Origin: a virus
Length of the DNA stretch: 36,908 nucleotides
IMG/VR virus record: IMGVR_UViG_3300012204_000014
Location: 1 to 36,908 of that record
Direction: 5' to 3' (one strand)
Below, piece after piece: positions 19,008 to 36,654 of the stretch. Below the pieces are notes generated by a model. The model did not search any database. It saw nothing but the letters and a program-made list of their open reading frames with translations, and had not been told where the DNA came from. The position numbers and the translations under genes were made by a program. The first letter of the stretch is position 1, and each line of letters opens with the position of its first letter.

Positions 19008-19276
19008 CGCACGCCCCACTCGCGCTGCCTTGCACGCCAATAGGTCGTCGTCTCTTCGCCGCTCCATTCCAGGTCGCGCCAGCAATCTTCGCAGACTGCA
19101 ATGATCGCAAACGCACCGCTGGCGCGCTCGTTGAGCAGGATGTGCAACGCATGGTTGCCGCACGTCTGTCCCGATTTCAGCATACAGCACGGGAATACCC
19201 GCCCGGCTTGCGAGTGCCGGTGGAGCGAATGTCGATAGTGGCTCGCGTCAAAATCGTGGGGAAATTCAGGCCGCAT
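19004..19276 (-). CDS. Small Cys-containing phage protein
   Basis: A 90-residue protein starting at ATG 19276, with AAGGAG upstream and an 11-bp overlap with the end of the large upstream gene. The pattern CCMLKSGQTCGNHALHI then VCEDCW suggests a zinc site made of CC, C-N-H and CxxC. This resembles a small domain seen in several phage early genes. The last 15 residues are Trp/Arg-rich. The function is unknown. Confidence 0.55.
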   Translation of the reverse strand: MRPEFPHDFDASHYRHSLHRHSQAGRVFPCCMLKSGQTCGNHALHILLNERASGAFAIIAVCEDCWRDLEWSGEETTTYWRARQREWGVR

Positions 19277-21386
19277 GGTGTGTCTCCTTGCGTTCCTCTG
19301 ACAGCCAGTTCCGGATCAGATCCTCCAGATCGCCCAGTGCGCCGCTCACGCTCTCGTAATCGTCGTCGAACACATCGGGAGCATCGCTCAGCAGATCGAG
19401 GCGCTTGCGCAGCGCGGCGAGGTCGGAGAGCTGGCCGCGCAGTTCGTCGAGCGGCGCGGAGTTGCCTGGCCCGGCCGCCCACGCCGCGATCGCCGCTAGG
19501 TCAGCGCGGATCGGGTCGAGCGGAATGGCGGGCGCGGCCATCAGCTGATCAACGGTGGCGATCACGGGCTGCTGCTGAGACTTGAATGCAAACGCCGGCG
19601 GCGGCTCCTTGTCGAGCAGCAGTGTGTAGGTCTCCCGCACGAAGGCGGCGATCGTCGTGTAGCCATAGATGTCGAGCGTTGCGAGCGCCTCGTCAGCCTC
19701 AGCACCGAACGCCTGTACTTCATCAGGCTTCCAAGAGCTGATGACCTGTTGCACGCCCTTTGGCTCTAAGAGCGGCCCAATCGCGATCCAGAGATCGAGC
19801 GCGGCATTCCGGTCCGTCGCACGGCCCAGCTTGTCGCTGAGCCGTGCGACCGCGTTCGTATCGAATGCCGGCCGCGCCTTCGCCGCCTCCCGGTCGCGCG
19901 CCAGCGAGATCGCGCTTTCAAGCGTCCGCGCGTCGCCGCGCCAGCCGTCGTTGTGGGCGATGGTCGGCGGCTGGGCGCTCTGCCAGAAGTAGCCGGCCTT
20001 TTCCAGGTCTTTCGGCAGCGCTGCGTCGAGATGGGCGAGCGTGGTGGCGGCTACTGCGGCGCGCTGCCGCGCGTGATAGCATTCGCCACATTCCTTGAGA
20101 TCGCCCCAGATGCCGTTCATGATGTTCTCGCCGCACGTCGGGCACGCCAGGCGAGTCGGGGCGGCGGACGCCGCCGCAGTAGCTGCGCGCTTGGCCGCGC
20201 CCCCTTCGAACGTCGCGAGCGTGCTCAGGTGACTGTCGAGCTGATTGGTGGTCGCGTAGAGCTTGCCCTGTGGGTCATCGAGCCGGAATTGGTTCCCGTC
20301 CCGCGTGAATGTCCAGCCCAGCGCGGCGAAGCGATCCCGCGCGTCCAGGTACGCCTCCTGGCGCCGCTGGGCATACGCGGCGCGCGAGTCCAGTTCAGCT
20401 AGCCAGATCGACAACTCTCCCTCCGCGAGCTCGATCTCGCCGCCCGTTTCGTCCGATCGGCCGCTGTAGTCACGAAAGCTATAGAACGTCGTCATGCCCT
20501 TCTGGCGCGTGCCGCTCTTCGCGTAGCCGTGCGCGTCGAGGCGCTTGAGGATGTCGCTGATATCGACCAGGTTCGATACAAGCGGCGACGGTGGGTGCAG
20601 CGCCGGCGCGGGCTGTGCCGCCGGCGTCGCCTGACTCTGTAGCCACTGCGCACGCACGCAGCTGCTGCAATGTCCGCCCTCGGTCGATCCGCTCGGCAGC
20701 CGGTTCTGGATCGTCATGCCGCACCCTGAGCGCAGCAGATCGGGGCGCTCGCGCGTCCACAGATGCGCGGTCGGGTGATGCGCGTCGATAGATTGCCAAA
20801 ACGGTGCGGCGATCTCCTGTGCCGCCTGCCGCACGTGCTGTGCGGTGCGCGGCCCGTCGCCGGCGATTCTGTCAGCGCGCTCAAACGCCTCGATCCGCTG
20901 CTCGGGCGGCAGCTGCTTCACGGCCTGGAGCTGCGAGGTTGGCAGATTCTCAAATTGAGAATCCTGCAAGTCGCGTGCTATCTCCGCCGCCTCCAGCTGG
21001 CGGTACAGCGTGGCGGTACTGGCGCCAAACTCCGCCTCTGCGCACTGTCTCCAGCTCTTGTAGCCCAGCGCTTTCCAGCCCTCGCGATCCTTCAGCTCCA
21101 GCAGCTCGCCGCGCGCAAGGTCAATCCGCGTTTTGATGCGGGTCACGACGGCGCGGGCTTCGGTGGCGTCCATCATCGGCACGCCGACGATCACATTGTC
21201 GGTCGTGGTGGTCAATTGTGTGGTCACGTTGCCAATCTCCTCCTGTTCGTAGCGGCGCGCGAGTGCGATGATGCCGCCCTTGTCGTAGGTCATCGCGCCC
21301 ACGCGCCAGAGGTGGTTGCCGGCCGCCTCTGGCGCGATGCCGTGCGCCGTGAGAATCGGCAGCGCCTGGCTGAATGTTTTGATCAT
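19266..21386 (-). CDS. Large ParB/DUF3102-like DNA-binding protein with zinc clusters
   Basis: A 706-residue protein. Residues about 80-195 carry ELKDREGWKALGYKSWRQCA and STATLYRQLEAAEI, the pattern of the DUF3102/ParB-HTH-like domain that binds DNA in many replication or partition proteins. Two Cys sets follow: residues about 222-243 (SGCGMT, HCSSC) and 415-436 (CPTCGEN, CGECY). The C-terminal third is helical with a possible coiled coil. The start overlaps the DnaA-like gene (ATGA), tying it to the replication cluster. It is probably a DNA-organising or initiator-accessory protein; no enzyme motif is seen. Confidence 0.55.
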   Translation of the reverse strand: MIKTFSQALPILTAHGIAPEAAGNHLWRVGAMTYDKGGIIALARRYEQEEIGNVTTQLTTTTDNVIVGVPMMDATEARAVVTRIKTRIDLARGELLELKDREGWKALGYKSWRQCAEAEFGASTATLYRQLEAAEIARDLQDSQFENLPTSQLQAVKQLPPEQRIEAFERADRIAGDGPRTAQHVRQAAQEIAAPFWQSIDAHHPTAHLWTRERPDLLRSGCGMTIQNRLPSGSTEGGHCSSCVRAQWLQSQATPAAQPAPALHPPSPLVSNLVDISDILKRLDAHGYAKSGTRQKGMTTFYSFRDYSGRSDETGGEIELAEGELSIWLAELDSRAAYAQRRQEAYLDARDRFAALGWTFTRDGNQFRLDDPQGKLYATTNQLDSHLSTLATFEGGAAKRAATAAASAAPTRLACPTCGENIMNGIWGDLKECGECYHARQRAAVAATTLAHLDAALPKDLEKAGYFWQSAQPPTIAHNDGWRGDARTLESAISLARDREAAKARPAFDTNAVARLSDKLGRATDRNAALDLWIAIGPLLEPKGVQQVISSWKPDEVQAFGAEADEALATLDIYGYTTIAAFVRETYTLLLDKEPPPAFAFKSQQQPVIATVDQLMAAPAIPLDPIRADLAAIAAWAAGPGNSAPLDELRGQLSDLAALRKRLDLLSDAPDVFDDDYESVSGALGDLEDLIRNWLSEERKETHHAA

Positions 21387-21751
21387 GCGGCCCTCACGAA
21401 ATAGCTATCGCGGCTCTGCGCCACCCACCAGCGCATGGCGTGGTCGGGCCGAGTGTGGGGTGGCGCGGCCAGTGGCCGCTGGGGCAGCAAGCTGTGCAGC
21501 TCGGCGGCGAAATAGGGATCGGCAGCCATGCGCTGCTCAATCTGCCCCAAGCTGTAGATGATCGTCGTGTGATCGCGCCCGCCGAGCAGTCGCCCGATCT
21601 CCTCGAGCGAAATAGTGGCCGCTTTGCGCAGCACCCAGGCGGCCGCCTGGCGCGCGAGCACGATATGCCGCATGCGACTTGCGCCCGTCAGATCGGCCGG
21701 CGTGAGGTCGAAATGCACAGCCACGTGGGCGATGAGCTGTTTGGGCGTCAT
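21383..21751 (-). CDS. Stand-alone DnaA domain IV (DnaA box-binding) protein
   Basis: A 122-residue protein that looks like the isolated C-terminal domain IV of DnaA: residues 1-85 include VAVHFDLTPADLTGASRMRH, IVLARQAAAWVLRK, ISLEEIGRLLGGRDHTTIIY and SLGQIEQ. GGRDHTT is the DnaA signature that contacts DnaA boxes. AAA+ and DnaB-contact domains are missing, so it cannot open an origin itself. It lies between the initiator gene and the large ParB-like gene, all coupled by ATGA overlaps. It may guide, compete with or inhibit host DnaA, or bind the phage origin. Confidence 0.8.
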   Translation of the reverse strand: MTPKQLIAHVAVHFDLTPADLTGASRMRHIVLARQAAAWVLRKAATISLEEIGRLLGGRDHTTIIYSLGQIEQRMAADPYFAAELHSLLPQRPLAAPPHTRPDHAMRWWVAQSRDSYFVRAA

Positions 21752-22833
21752 GGCCCACCCCGCGATCGCTGCCGATGCGTAGCTAGCGCGGCAAGCGCCT
21801 CATCGTCGCTGTCGCCCTGCCCGAGCCGGTCCTGCACAAACAGCCAGTCGGTGATGTACTGCCGGTGCGTGGCGGCCGTGGGGGCGGGGAGTAGCCGCGC
21901 GGCGTGGTCGCGGATCGACTCGACCTCTGGCGGCACAGCGCTGCCGAGCGTGAAGCCGTCGCGATTGGCATAGGCGGCCGGGTCGAGCTGGGGACCCTCG
22001 CGCGCCGGGGCCAACTGGCCGCACCGCAGCGCGTGGAAAAAGACGCCCTCGGTGAGGTGGCCGTCAGATAGCGCGATCCGGCGCTGGTCATATGCCCAGC
22101 GGTCGCGCACCTGCTGCGGCGTCCAGCCCGGCCGGGCCAGGAATGCATCGGCAATAATCGCCCCATCGGCCCCGAGTTCGGCCATGATCTGCGCGGCAGG
22201 ATGCGATCGATCGATCGATCGATCATCTCGCAAACTCCCCCCAGACCCCCCAGTGGTACTGACTCTTTCAACAACAACAGGACTTGTTGCTGTTAGATAA
22301 TCATGTACCATGGGGGGGTCAAGGGGGGGATCGGAATCGGTTAGGCCTGATCGATCAGGTGATCGATCACTTGGTCCATGGCCGTTCTGCCGCAGTGCCA
22401 CGCGCTGCACGGCCGCTAAGATCGGGCTCGCTGCACGTGATCGATCACCTGATCGATCACGTGCTGGGGTCGCCGTCGCCTGATCGATCACCTGATCGAT
22501 CACTTCTTCCGACTCGTCACAATGTGATCGATCACCTGATCGATCGCTTGCGTCGTCTTCGTCGGGGTGGCGGAGCAGCGTGATGTTCCGGCCGTCGTAC
22601 AAGATCCAGCCCTTCTCGGCGATCTGGCGCAGGCAGTCGGTGATCAGGCCGCGACTCACGCCGCTCCACAGAGAAAGCTGCCGGACACCGGGCGCAAAGG
22701 TGCCGCCAACGCCGCAGTGCTCCAGGATAACCTTGAACACCTCTGCCGGTGGCGGCGAGGCAATGTATTGAAATGGGAGGAGCTTCGCTCGCGGTGCGAC
22801 GCTAGGTGTCGCAGATGCGTGGTAAGATTCCAT
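21748..22833 (-). CDS. Replication initiator-like winged-helix protein with origin repeats in its gene
   Basis: A 361-residue protein. ATG 22833 is chosen for AAGGA at 22841-22845; ATG 22848 has no RBS. Residues about 32-90 (VFKVILEHCGVGGTFAPGVR, LSLWSGVSRGLITDCLRQIA, EKGWILYDGR) look like a winged helix such as in initiators of lambda O/DnaD type. Residues 95-185 are a poor-complexity linker (DRSGDRS, VIDQVIDQ) imposed by the repeats at DNA level. A helical C-terminal domain follows (HPAAQIMAELGADGAIIADA, TPQQVRDRWAYDQRR). This plan, with origin inside the initiator gene, is that of lambda O. No helicase gene is near. Confidence 0.65.
   Translation of the reverse strand: MESYHASATPSVAPRAKLLPFQYIASPPPAEVFKVILEHCGVGGTFAPGVRQLSLWSGVSRGLITDCLRQIAEKGWILYDGRNITLLRHPDEDDASDRSGDRSHCDESEEVIDQVIDQATATPARDRSGDRSRAASPILAAVQRVALRQNGHGPSDRSPDRSGLTDSDPPLDPPMVHDYLTATSPVVVERVSTTGGSGGSLRDDRSIDRSHPAAQIMAELGADGAIIADAFLARPGWTPQQVRDRWAYDQRRIALSDGHLTEGVFFHALRCGQLAPAREGPQLDPAAYANRDGFTLGSAVPPEVESIRDHAARLLPAPTAATHRQYITDWLFVQDRLGQGDSDDEALAALATHRQRSRGGP
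22205..22546. repeat. Iteron array, candidate replication origin
   Basis: Perfect TGATCGATCA decamers lie at 22348, 22360, 22438, 22450, 22481, 22493 and 22525, plus a 9/10 copy at 22537. They form four pairs with a 2-bp CC or GG spacer. Pair starts are 90, 43 and 44 bp apart, close to whole helical turns. A (GATC)5 run lies at 22205-22224. Each decamer is itself palindromic and has two Dam GATC sites. An AT-richer stretch (about 22261-22310), flanked by C-runs at 22236-22252 and G-runs at 22311-22329, could be the unwinding element. Confidence 0.75.
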
Positions 22834-22834
22834 C

Positions 22835-22900
22835 GTTCCATCCTTCATTGTTGCAAGTGAGTCGGCCTGCTGCCCCTGAGAAGCCAGCAGGCCGATTTTT
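22835..22900 (+). ncRNA. Candidate antisense RNA over the initiator leader (OOP-like)
   Basis: TGGTAAGAT at 22820-22828 on the plus strand is an extended -10 (no good -35 is seen). An RNA from about 22835 would end at a strong terminator, giving roughly 66 nt, and would be complementary to the initiator RBS (22841-22845) and leader. No plus-strand gene is near to need that terminator. Existence of the RNA is inferred from these two signals. Confidence 0.4.
22862..22900 (+). terminator. Rho-independent terminator on the plus strand
   Basis: Stem TCGGCCTGCTG (22862-22872) with CAGCAGGCCGA (22885-22895), a perfect 11 bp with a 12-base loop, followed by TTTTT at 22896-22900. The T-run is on the plus strand although the genes around are on the minus strand. 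Confidence 0.8.
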
Positions 22901-23524: not shown

Positions 23525-23632
23525 TGTGGTAGAATAGCGGCGGACGCAGCACGACTCGCCTGTACCCTTTTCGCGAGTCGTGCTGTAGCAGCGGTGTGGC
23601 CCCATTCGTGTGTCGTAGACACGGGTGGGGCC
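23525..23632. promoter_or_regulatory. Divergent promoter candidate and two leader hairpins before the integrase
   Basis: TTGTGGTAGAAT (23525-23535) gives an extended -10 on the plus strand; the overlapping TAGAATA also reads as TATTCT on the minus strand toward the early operon. Downstream on the plus strand are a perfect 13-bp hairpin (23547-23559/23573-23585) and a 14-bp hairpin (23598-23611/23619-23632) followed by TTCGTGTT. The integrase starts 127 bases later, so readthrough of these hairpins may set integrase level. Confidence 0.45.
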
Positions 23633-23758
23633 TTCGTGTTACCACTTCATGGTTCCCTCGCTTTCGATAACCGTTGCACCCGGATAGTGCCCCAATCCGC
23701 CACCCCGGCACGTTGCCGCATGGGGCGGATCTGCCGCCCTGTATGCGGAGGTGTGGAC

Positions 23759-24757
23759 ATGCAGATTGAAGAGGCTGTTGGTGTGTTTCTGGCGCATCGT
23801 CGCGCAAAGCGACTGAGCCAGAACTCGCTGGATCGCTACGCCCAGGCGTTGCAACGGTGGCAGCGCTGGCGGGCGACTCTGGTGTTGCCAAACGACGTGG
23901 ACGCGGTGGAGATAGCTGAGCTACGCGACTTTTTCACCTACCTGCTCTACGAGCACGTCCCCCACAGTGACAACCCTCGACGGCACGCGGCGGCCGCACC
24001 TGGTTTGGCGCCGGCGACGGTCCTCAGCACGCGCAACGTGCTGCGCGCCTTCTGGACATTCGCAGCGGGTGAGGGGTGGCTGCGCGAGGCGCAGCGCGAC
24101 TATTTCCGAGGCGATCGGATACCGCGCCCCATGATCGAACTGGAGGATCGGCCGTTTTGGAGTGACGACCTCGTGGACGCCCTGCTTGGTGCCTGTACGG
24201 GTTCAGCCGAGGAGACCGCGCGAGACCAGGCAATCATCCTGCTCTTCTACGAGAGCGGGATGCGGCTCGACGAGCTGAGCCGGCTGGAAGAGAATGCCGA
24301 GTTTCAACTTGAGAATCGCGCGGCGCGGATCGTCGGCAAGGGCCGCAAGCGGCGCTGGATCTTCTGGCACGATCGCGCCGATACCGCGCTACGTGCCTAC
24401 TTGCCGCTGCGCCGGGGCGGGCCAGGCGGCGCGCTGTTCCGGAGCATGTCGCCGAAAAACAACGGCGGCGCGCTGAGTCGGGATGCGATCCGGGCGCTGA
24501 TCAAGCGTCTCGCCCGGCGGGCCGGCATTGAACTGCCCAAGCAGGCGCCGATCCACGCCGGCCGCCACGGCTTCGCCCACGCGATGATCGATGGCGGCGC
24601 CGAGATCAGCGAGCTGGCGCAGATGATGGGCCATAGCTCCCTGGATACGACCTATCGCTATGTGCGCGAGCGCCGCGACAGGCTTCAGGAAGCGCACCGC
24701 CAGGCGCATATGCAGCGATTACAGCGCGACATTCCCGCTCCGATTCATAATCGCTAG
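23759..24757 (+). CDS. int: Tyrosine recombinase, phage integrase
   Basis: A 332-residue tyrosine recombinase. ATG 23759 has GGAGGT six bases upstream. The N-terminal SAM-like core-binding domain covers about residues 1-95 (VFLAHRRAKRLSQNSLDRYA). The catalytic set is present: Arg in SGMRLDELSRL, Lys in GKGRKRRW, His-x-x-Arg in HAGRHGFAHAM, His in MMGHSSLDTT and the Tyr nucleophile in YRYVRER. Its stop codon directly abuts a tRNA 3' end (attP), the usual layout for integrases that use tRNA genes. It integrates and, with an excisionase, excises the phage. Confidence 0.92.
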   Translation: MQIEEAVGVFLAHRRAKRLSQNSLDRYAQALQRWQRWRATLVLPNDVDAVEIAELRDFFTYLLYEHVPHSDNPRRHAAAAPGLAPATVLSTRNVLRAFWTFAAGEGWLREAQRDYFRGDRIPRPMIELEDRPFWSDDLVDALLGACTGSAEETARDQAIILLFYESGMRLDELSRLEENAEFQLENRAARIVGKGRKRRWIFWHDRADTALRAYLPLRRGGPGGALFRSMSPKNNGGALSRDAIRALIKRLARRAGIELPKQAPIHAGRHGFAHAMIDGGAEISELAQMMGHSSLDTTYRYVRERRDRLQEAHRQAHMQRLQRDIPAPIHNR

Positions 24758-29614: not shown

Positions 29615-30592
29615 ATGCAAGAACTCATTCTCCCACCCCGGCAGCTGACCCTCGATCTGCCGCTGATCGCCCGCGCCGGCGCGGCCGCCAACGCCGCAGC
29701 TGCGGCGCGCGCGTTCGCCCAGTATCGCGAGCGAATCGCCGACGAGACCAGGCGCCGCCACGACTCCGATCTGGCAACATTCGCGACATTTCTTGGCGCG
29801 ATTGGACTTGATACTGCCGGTGGTATCACGCTGGCCAGCGACCCGGCCGCCTGGGCGGGTATGACCTGGGGGCTCATAGCTGGCTTCGTGGCGTGGCAGT
29901 CGAGCGAGGGCTACGCGATCGGCAGTATCAATGTGCGGCTCTCCACCGTCAAAGCCTACGCCCGGCTCGCTGCCAAGGCCGGCGCCTTGTCTGCCGACGA
30001 ATATGCCCAGATCCGATTAGTGCAAGGCTTCCGGCACGCCGAAGGGCGCAGAGTCGACGCGAAACGCGAAACGACTCGGAAAGCAGGGGGGAAGAAACAA
30101 GCACCAGTATCTATTAGTCATGCGCATGCCAGTCTCTTGAAAGCGCAGGTCGATCCGCGCGATCGGCTGCTGATGTGCCTGCTGCTCGACCACGGGCTGC
30201 GGGTGGGGGAAGTGGCCAGCCTGGTCGCTGCCGATTTCGATCTCGCCGGCGGGCTGCTGCGCTTCTACCGATCGAAGGTCGATAAGACGCAGACGCATGC
30301 CCTCAGCAGTGACACGCTGGCCGCTGCGCTGGCCTGTGGGCTAGAGAAGCGCACAGGTCCGCTCTTCGGTGTCGATCGTACCATTCGCCGCGCCGTGGGC
30401 CGTCTGGGCGCGGCCGTGGGCCTGGCCAAGTTGTCCCCCCACGATTGCCGCCACGCCTGGGCCACCTTCGCCACGCGCGCGGGCACGCCGACCAAGGCGC
30501 TACAGGATGCCGGCGGCTGGAGTTCGCCGGCCATGCCGCTACGCTACGCCGAGAGTGCCGAGATTGCGAACGATGGGGTCAAGCTGCGCTAG
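29615..30592 (+). CDS. Second tyrosine recombinase
   Basis: A 325-residue tyrosine recombinase. The N-terminal core-binding domain is at about 40-140 (SEGYAIGSINVRLSTVKAYA). Catalytic residues seen: Arg in HGLRVGEVAS, His-x-x-Arg in HDCRHAWATF, Trp in GGWSSPAMPL in place of the usual second His (as in Cre), and Tyr in RYAE. The Lys is probably in RSKVDKTQTH. It is distinct from the attP-linked integrase. Because it lies beside a perfect palindrome and far from attP, it may resolve genome dimers or invert DNA rather than integrate. Confidence 0.85.
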   Translation: MQELILPPRQLTLDLPLIARAGAAANAAAAARAFAQYRERIADETRRRHDSDLATFATFLGAIGLDTAGGITLASDPAAWAGMTWGLIAGFVAWQSSEGYAIGSINVRLSTVKAYARLAAKAGALSADEYAQIRLVQGFRHAEGRRVDAKRETTRKAGGKKQAPVSISHAHASLLKAQVDPRDRLLMCLLLDHGLRVGEVASLVAADFDLAGGLLRFYRSKVDKTQTHALSSDTLAAALACGLEKRTGPLFGVDRTIRRAVGRLGAAVGLAKLSPHDCRHAWATFATRAGTPTKALQDAGGWSSPAMPLRYAESAEIANDGVKLR

Positions 30593-34649: not shown

Positions 34650-35790
34650 CACGGTCGCGTGCGGTCGGCGCTGGGGCAAGTCCACGCTGGGCGTCAATCT
34701 CATCGCCGACACCACACTCGCGGGCTATCCCTTCGGCTGGTTTGCGCCAACCTATAAGCTGCTGATGGAGGCGTGGCGCGACACGATCCGCGTGCTCCGC
34801 CCGGTCGTCAGAAGCAGCAACGCCAGCGACCACCGGATCGAGCTTGTCACCGGCGGCGTGGTCGAGTTCTGGACACTCCAGGATACAGACGCCGGGCGCT
34901 CGCGCAAGTACAAGCGTGTGTTTGTCGATGAGGCGGGCCTGGTGCCCAATCTCGGCGAGATCTGGCAGGCGGCCATCCGGCCCACCCTGGCCGACTACGC
35001 AGGCGATGGTTGGCTGGCAGGCACCCCCAAAGGCCGCAACTTCTTTTGGGAATGCCACAACCGGGGCGCAGATCCACTCCAGATCGACTGGGCCAGCTGG
35101 CAGAAGCCGACCGAGGACAATCCGCACATTCCGCCTGGTGAAGTCGCGGCGATGCGCGCAGAGCTGACCGAGCGGCGCGCGGCCCAGGAGATCGACGCGA
35201 TGTTCCTGGACGACGGCGGCGGCGTCTTTCGCAATGTGGTGGCCTGTTCGACCGGAACGCCGCAGCACGAACCGACCAAAGGCCATGCCTACGTCGCGGG
35301 CGTGGACTGGGGCAAGTCGCACGACTACACCGTGATTAGCGTCTGGGACGTGACCGAGCAGCGCGAAGTCTGGCTTGAGCGGACGAACGGCGTTGAATAT
35401 GCCATCCAGGAGCAACGACTCGTCGCACTGGCCGAACGCTACAAGCTCAAAGCGATCTGGCCAGAGGCGAATAGTATCGGCGGACCAATCATCGAACGCC
35501 TGCGCCGGCGCAATTTGCCGGTTCGGCCGTTCACCACCACAAACGCCACCAAAGCCGCAGCCGTGGACGCGCTGACATTGGCGCTGGAACGCCAGGCGAT
35601 TACGCTGCTCGACGACCCCGTCGCCATTGCTGAGTTGCTGGCCTTCGAAGGCGAAACGTTGCCGTCTGGACTTATCCGCTACGGCGCTCCCGAGGGACAA
35701 CACGACGATACCGTGGTTGCCCGCATGATCGCCCACCAGGCCGCCCGCTATCCCCGCGAAGGTCGCGCGAGTGAGAATCCGATCTATTAA
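34573..35790 (+). CDS. Terminase large subunit
   Basis: A 405-residue terminase. ATPase: Walker A GRRWGKST at residues 31-38, Walker B KRVFVDEAG at about 113-121. Nuclease: VAGVDWGKSHDYTV (about 240-253) with the first metal-binding Asp, EANSIGGP near 297, and GQHDDTVVAR (about 375-385) with the last acidic pair. It drives packaging and cuts the concatemer. It starts inside the small subunit gene. The minus-strand homing endonuclease gene ends on its stop codon, so an insertion directly behind the terminase is likely. The gene is shorter than many terminases but has all motifs. Confidence 0.93.
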   Translation: MPTLTIQLPRPHPGQRQILREARRFNTVACGRRWGKSTLGVNLIADTTLAGYPFGWFAPTYKLLMEAWRDTIRVLRPVVRSSNASDHRIELVTGGVVEFWTLQDTDAGRSRKYKRVFVDEAGLVPNLGEIWQAAIRPTLADYAGDGWLAGTPKGRNFFWECHNRGADPLQIDWASWQKPTEDNPHIPPGEVAAMRAELTERRAAQEIDAMFLDDGGGVFRNVVACSTGTPQHEPTKGHAYVAGVDWGKSHDYTVISVWDVTEQREVWLERTNGVEYAIQEQRLVALAERYKLKAIWPEANSIGGPIIERLRRRNLPVRPFTTTNATKAAAVDALTLALERQAITLLDDPVAIAELLAFEGETLPSGLIRYGAPEGQHDDTVVARMIAHQAARYPREGRASENPIY

Positions 35791-36512
35791 TCATTGACTC
35801 GCCGCCATCCCTTGAAGCTCTTGCGCTTCCCTGCGAGCATCCGCTGAAAGTCATTCCAGCGCCAGCCCTGCTCACGCGCAAACGCCTTGCCGCCGTGAAT
35901 GGTCACGATTTCACCCGCTGGCGAGATCAGGGTATAGGTTTTCTTCTTGGTTTCGTTTAGCGCCCGCGCTTGCGCCGCCTGTTGTTCGCGTAGCTCCGGA
36001 CGCGCTGTGAACGTCGCCAGCCTGGACTCTCCGATCTTGCGCTTGTGGTCAGCACTGTACCGCCGCCCAACGATCAACCGCCGCCGCTTCTGCCGATACG
36101 CCGCAGTCGCCATCGCAGATCGTAGGTTCGTCAGATGATCAGCCGAGAACACCCGCCCGCGCATTGCCATTGAGAGCTTGCGGCGCGTTGCCTGGGATGG
36201 GCTGATGCCAAGCAAGCTGCCCGCCGTCGTTGCCGTGTTGTAGATACGGTCACGAGCGACCGCAGCGAACAGCCAGTCAAGCCAGCGCTGCTCAGTCGCT
36301 ATCAAGTCCTCTTTCCGCTCGACAACTTCAATCACCGAAAAGGTGAAGGCATTCGGCCCGTACTTGTTCCAGGCGTGCTGTAGGTGCTTGGACGGATGGA
36401 TGCCCCGGCGCAACGTGTGGCGATGCCCAGCCCAGCGCAGCCGTATAACGACCGCACTACCCATATAGATCGCGTCGTTTGGCCCTTCAATCGCGTAGAT
36501 GCCCATCGTCAT
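35787..36512 (-). CDS. GIY-YIG homing endonuclease with NUMOD segments
   Basis: A 241-residue protein starting at ATG 36512 (AGAGG upstream). The GIY-YIG domain at residues about 3-85 reads GIYAIEGPNDAIYMGSA, R near residue 27 (IRLRWAGHRHTLRRG), and a Glu near 77 (EQRWLDWL). Two to three NUMOD3-like helical segments follow (SPSQATRRKLSMAMRGRVFS, RRYSADHKRKIGESRLA), then a C-terminal DNA-binding unit like NUMOD1 (HGGKAFAREQGWRWNDFQRM). Its stop overlaps the terminase stop. It lies between terminase and portal on the other strand, typical of a free-standing homing element. Confidence 0.85.
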   Translation of the reverse strand: MTMGIYAIEGPNDAIYMGSAVVIRLRWAGHRHTLRRGIHPSKHLQHAWNKYGPNAFTFSVIEVVERKEDLIATEQRWLDWLFAAVARDRIYNTATTAGSLLGISPSQATRRKLSMAMRGRVFSADHLTNLRSAMATAAYRQKRRRLIVGRRYSADHKRKIGESRLATFTARPELREQQAAQARALNETKKKTYTLISPAGEIVTIHGGKAFAREQGWRWNDFQRMLAGKRKSFKGWRRVND

Positions 36513-36654
36513 GGGATGCCTCTTGTAGTCGCGCCAGCTCCGCACGTACCACGCGATCTAGGAATATGCCCATCTGCTCACCAGAGAGCGCGCACGCAAG
36601 GCGGATGGCGTTGTAGGTCGCAAGCCAGATTTTGATTGTTCGGTACTCTTTCAT
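36487..36654 (-). CDS. Ribbon-helix-helix DNA-binding protein, partner of the homing endonuclease
   Basis: A 55-residue protein starting at ATG 36654: MKEYRTIKIWLATYNAIRLA then CALSGEQMGIFLDRVV, a strand followed by two helices as in CopG/Arc-type RHH regulators. It overlaps the endonuclease start by 26 bp, so both genes form one operon. The 16-bp palindrome at 36657-36672 lies directly upstream of its ATG, a likely operator for autorepression. It would keep endonuclease expression low. Confidence 0.65.
   Translation of the reverse strand: MKEYRTIKIWLATYNAIRLACALSGEQMGIFLDRVVRAELARLQEASHDDGHLRD

Follow-up and report, generated by a model that had tools for sequence, protein, structure and literature searches.

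The window analysed here, the entire IMG/VR virus record IMGVR_UViG_3300012204_000014 (36,908 bases), carries an array of paired palindromic decamers inside the gene of a putative replication initiator. We propose that this array is probably an intragenic iteron origin that lies in the linker of its own initiator's gene and works like the origin of phage lambda. We infer the identity of the initiator and the activity of the origin from the arrangement, because inverted-repeat sites in the gene of a DNA-binding protein, beside an AT-richer tract, constitute the layout of lambda ori and SPP1 oriL.

The array consists of seven exact copies and one single-mismatch copy of TGATCGATCA, which is a perfect palindrome. 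The eight decamers form four near-palindromic pairs with a 12-bp pitch (10 + 2), and the array resides approximately 300-640 nt within the gene (Table 1). The first-pass annotation had described these decamers, their four pairs with 2-bp spacers, and their reading as DRSxDRS in three pairs and VIDQVIDQ in one. This observation is confirmed at exact positions (VIDQVIDQ is encoded by pair 2) and even proves to be understated. A fifth, degenerate pair, a run of GATC units whose register is less certain, is located 144 bp from pair 4. When one mismatch is allowed, the window contains 11 matches, compared with 1.3 +/- 1.06 in shuffled sequences, and none of 100 shuffles reaches 11. Exact copies of TGATCGATCA are absent from the rest of the 36.9-kb record, and this confinement to the array rules out a genome-wide over-representation of the decamer. 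The third reading frame of the decamer would hold a TGA stop codon, and both of the two open frames are used.

Pairs of adjacent decamers were sought in 2.9 million viral contigs and in 84,980 bacterial and archaeal genomes. Just two further viral contigs contain them, both with an array: IMGVR_UViG_3300009553_000373 (hereafter L004; four perfect pairs) and IMGVR_UViG_3300005332_000016 (L005; three perfect pairs and one degenerate pair). In each, the array is embedded in a homologue of the putative initiator gene. A protein-profile search that is blind to the decamers again returns L004 and L005 alone; therefore, the association between gene and array is not just an artefact of discovery. As for homologues that keep the linker without the decamers, which the first-pass annotation had named as refuting its reading, none occurs in the collections searched, where there are two homologues only. 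In the bacterial and archaeal genomes, 18 stretches hold one pair apiece. Neither these stretches nor the triple matches of the inner octamer GATCGATC (L065-L069) are accompanied by a convincing initiator homologue, and both were set aside as background. No decamer array is present at any other locus in the collections scanned, including the 84,980 genomes. Comparison of the initiator gene with 50,697 phage and 72,556 plasmid records yields no match, and its profile finds only one short match, to a CRP-like regulator, in 400 Chloroflexota genomes and the 158 genomes of one class. The array is conserved with its gene in phages that share little else.

Is the array maintained as DNA or as a peptide? 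Sequence comparison provides good support for conservation of a DNA word that protein selection does not explain, because the reading frame changes at a pair anchored by a PPxxPPMV motif, which is read as DRSPDRS in the window and L004 and as VIDHLIDQ in L005. The inner octamer is invariant in 13 pairs of the three phages and the outer bases are nearly so, whereas the flanks vary; the spacer measures 2 bp in 13 pairs and is mostly CC or GG. Furthermore, the decamer calls for codons that this genome seldom uses (CGA, 6.5% of Arg codons; TCA, 4.5% of Ser codons). In 2000 synonymous recodings per gene, at most two perfect decamers arise, and shuffling each gene's own codons yields at most four, compared with the 7, 8 and 6 observed in the window, L004 and L005, respectively. 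The first-pass proposal that the repeats are kept as DNA is thus well supported: the homologues retain the decamers, the frame shifts at the anchored site and recoding destroys the array. Such frame-changing repeats separate DNA selection from protein selection unusually cleanly.

The AT-richer segment between C-runs and G-runs that the first-pass annotation noticed beside the array is real and forms the core of an imperfect palindrome, a candidate unwinding element that the decamer pairs surround or abut in all three genes. The palindrome follows a common layout, in which a C-run, 3-4 nt, a second C-run and (A)ATGGTA precede the core, and a G-run, 3-6 nt and a second G-run follow it. Its length is 93, 82 and 98 nt, and the GC content of its core is 38, 28 and 44%, in the window, L004 and L005, respectively. 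The 38% of the window core contrasts with approximately 65% for the genome, and the contrast is weaker in L005. Of all 60-bp stretches, only two in the window and none in L004 are less stable than the core. The arms in the window and L005 also hold TGGTA/TACCA, and their inner part differs in sequence between the two phages but keeps its pairing; inner pairing is weak in L004. In the window, all prolines of the C-runs are encoded by CCC (29% of Pro codons) and all glycines of the G-runs by GGG (15.8% of Gly codons). The C-run/TGGTA pattern has 34 matches in viral contigs, and the full palindrome is found in L004 and L005 only. An Rfam search returns no match. Folding energy was rejected as proof of a hairpin, since the z-scores against synonymous recodings (-2.3, 0.2 and -2.5) are unconvincing.

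The centres of adjacent pairs are separated by 44, 43, 90 and 144 bp in the window, 35, 43 and 90 bp in L004, and 57, 77 and 133 bp in L005. The first-pass annotation had interpreted the spacing as phased binding in 43-44-bp steps with one position missing near 22393. The distances of 44, 43 and 90 bp stand; the 43-44-bp steps are not supported, and a period of approximately 11.1 bp fits the spacings of the three phages instead (mean resultant length 0.94). Random spacings with the codon frame kept, and with any period from 10 to 12.5 allowed, match this fit in 0.1% of trials (p about 0.001), and the spacings do not fit a 10.5-bp period. We regard the 11.1-bp phasing as a lead. The missing position is unsupported, because the interval from pair 3 to pair 4 has no site even at two mismatches and L004 shares the 90-bp gap.

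The N-terminal domain of the putative initiator is predicted to be a CRP/GntR-type winged helix with a helix-turn-helix and a beta wing. Its model aligns with CAP/CRP from the CAP-DNA complex (Z 9.7, root-mean-square deviation 3.7, 68 residues). The homologues have profile matches to GntR, FadR and HutC regulators; the E values are 6e-4 for PF00392, 0.004 for HTH_Crp_2 and, in one homologue, 6e-5 for a HutC model. The recognition region GLITDCLRQ, like the decamers, is invariant in the three proteins. The whole-protein model shows a disordered array-bearing linker and, at low confidence, a helical C-terminal half; its predicted local distance difference test (pLDDT) score is 48, too poor for the C-terminal half to be read. 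The ATG codon at 22833 (361 residues) is probably the better start, because it aligns with the homologue starts MEVYH/MSESYH and follows a purine-rich AAGGA.

The putative initiator gene is adjoined by a gene for a stand-alone DnaA domain IV protein that has no ATPase domain and may act as a partner, and then by a gene for a 706-residue protein; no loader is recognised next to the initiator. A homologue of the DnaA domain IV protein adjoins the L004 initiator and none is found in L005, which argues that the array is independent of this gene. The window lacks a standard DnaA box (TTATNCACA), and no helicase, loader, primase or polymerase is recognised among the record proteins tested.

Table 1. 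Positions of the array, the palindrome and the associated genes (window coordinates unless L004 or L005 is named)
Feature	Position	Strand	Sequence	Remarks
Decamer pair 1	22525..22546		TGATCGATCA-CC-TGATCGATCG	members start at 22525 and 22537; read DRSGDRS
Decamer pair 2	22481..22502		TGATCGATCA-CC-TGATCGATCA	members start at 22481 and 22493; read VIDQVIDQ
Decamer pair 3	22438..22459		TGATCGATCA-CC-TGATCGATCA	members start at 22438 and 22450; read DRSGDRS
Decamer pair 4	22348..22369		TGATCGATCA-GG-TGATCGATCA	members start at 22348 and 22360; read DRSPDRS; L005 counterpart in other frame
Degenerate pair 5	22204..22225		CGATCGATCG-AT-CGATCGATCA	read DRSIDRS; L005 counterpart present, L004 decayed
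Imperfect palindrome, C-run and G-run arms	22237..22329			conserved in L004 and L005
AT-richer core of palindrome, candidate unwinding element	22252..22311			38% GC
Putative initiator gene, 366 residues	21748..22848	-		open frame and homologues
Winged-helix domain (N-terminal, predicted), coding region	22552..22785	-		model pLDDT 74
Stand-alone DnaA domain IV protein, possible partner	21383..21751	-		PF08299, E 2.5e-20; downstream, 4-bp overlap with initiator gene
Putative initiator homologue, L004	12786-13847	-		53% protein identity to window; array inside gene
Putative initiator homologue, L005	12018-13097	+		40% protein identity to window; array inside gene

Several observations weigh against an origin. 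None of the three proteins matches a replication or initiator family in Pfam, PHROG or NCBIfam, the winged-helix fold is also common to ordinary regulators, and the family has three members only. The window has stretches less stable than the core, which ranks only ninth in L005. GC skew is uninformative; it turns weakly near 20 kb, where a block of minus-strand genes lies. The phasing was noticed post hoc, after looking at the data. No replication initiator occurs among the structural matches listed for the winged helix, and plasmid Rep families give no profile match apart from a RepB_primase_C match at chance level (E 0.18) in one of the homologues.

These observations leave room for an unlikely alternative in which the decamer pairs are operators and the winged-helix protein is an autorepressor that stops operon transcription by binding inside its own gene, with no origin involved. 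A domain of the CRP/GntR regulator type, compact palindromes resembling typical operators and a protein without an initiator family match are what such a repressor would present. However, the array is positioned some 300-640 nt inside the gene and not at a promoter, and its 8-10 sites lie on both sides of, or directly beside, a conserved AT-richer palindrome that an operator does not need. The adjoining DnaA domain IV gene and the lack of any other recognised replication gene in the record also favour an origin over an operator. Autoregulation and origin function can coexist.

Other roles for the array are less probable still. We consider it very unlikely that another phage protein binds the array as a site for packaging, recombination or centromere-like partition. 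The phage has two tyrosine integrases, and palindrome clusters occur in partition sites too, but no ParA or ParB match is present among the proteins tested, and the array is located inside a winged-helix gene with which it is conserved in otherwise dissimilar phages. The least probable explanation, that the repeats are a mere DRSxDRS protein linker or a GATC repeat born of slippage without any DNA function, is largely refuted. Although most units read DRSxDRS and pair 5 is itself a GATC run, a linker does not account for the frame change, the rare codons or octamers that remain invariant despite 40-53% protein identity, and synonymous recoding does not reproduce the array. The pairs are also scattered at unequal distances and do not stand in tandem.

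How would an intragenic iteron origin of this kind operate? The N-terminal winged helix would bind the palindromic decamers. GntR-type regulators are known to act as dimers on short palindromes (about 10-11 bp), so each decamer would take up one dimer and each 22-bp pair two. With four to five pairs at multiples of approximately 11 bp, the dimers would come to lie on one face of the DNA and could fold it into an O-some-like complex. The resulting strain would melt the neighbouring AT-richer palindrome, and the C-run and G-run arms may bound the melted region or, once the strands are freed, fold into hairpins. Recruitment of the host helicase would then fall to the C-terminal half of the initiator, perhaps with help from the DnaA domain IV protein.

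The lambda origin is located in the middle of gene O and comprises inverted-repeat iterons at four to six sites and an AT-rich tract (PMC7466680). The candidate origin shares with lambda the inverted-repeat sites inside a (putative) initiator gene beside an AT-rich tract. It differs from lambda, which uses single longer iterons, in that each 22-bp site comprises two palindromic decamers, the sites are read in two frames, the palindrome has C-run and G-run arms and degenerate sites lie across the core; moreover, no P-like loader is recognised. Of the lambda O-like origin claimed in the first-pass annotation, the resemblance in layout remains the best reading, and homology to lambda O is not detectable. 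In SPP1 oriL, the initiator sites likewise lie within the initiator gene, gene 38, beside an AT-rich unwinding element (PMC6316719). SPP1 differs in having direct repeats, oriR as a second origin, and a loader and helicase of its own, and homology to gp38 is not supported by any PHROG match or any match in the 50,697 phage records. Iteron plasmids, including F, P1 and RK2, also place arrays of initiator sites in helix register with an A+T-rich region alongside (PMC5043065). The candidate origin differs in that its sites are palindromes within the gene and that the protein matches no plasmid Rep family. TGATCGATCA turns up in 36 open papers, and none of the 15 listed deals with origins, judged by title and abstract.

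It is conceivable, but rather doubtful, that the array represents a new type of origin. In such an origin, a CRP/GntR-like initiator would act on paired palindromic 10-mers, which surround a conserved palindrome whose arms hold C-runs and G-runs, and the melted strands would fold into hairpins that set the place, and perhaps the strand, of helicase entry, all within a protein-coding gene read in two frames. Outside model hosts, few viruses have a known origin. In this viral group, whose hosts are probably Chloroflexota, the sequence reveals both a compact candidate origin of about 380 bp and its putative initiator, a protein that matches no family in the libraries searched. The large terminase suggests this host by its identity of up to 47% to Chloroflexota genome proteins, compared with 34% in the phage records listed. 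The arrangement also offers a search rule for others, namely paired palindromes in a linker that joins a winged helix to a C-terminal domain.

A strong hairpin at 22863-22894 precedes the start of the putative initiator gene, and strong hairpins likewise lie just upstream in L004 and L005. The stems differ among the three phages (CGGCCTGCTG/CAGCAGGCCG; CGGCACCCC/GGGGTGCCG; GCCTCGCT/AGCGAGGC). The window hairpin is followed by a T-run on the plus strand, like a terminator of antisense transcription, and the upstream hairpin may be a leader regulator. The 706-residue protein (19266-21386, minus strand) contains a 56-residue stretch that is 87.5% identical in L004 (7601-7768), where the remainder of the protein is unmatched; the stretch is possibly an exchanged domain. 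The two tyrosine integrase genes are located at 23594-24757 and 29615-30592, both on the plus strand. A GIY-YIG endonuclease gene (35787-36545, minus strand), possibly encoding a homing endonuclease, directly follows the large terminase gene of the other strand.
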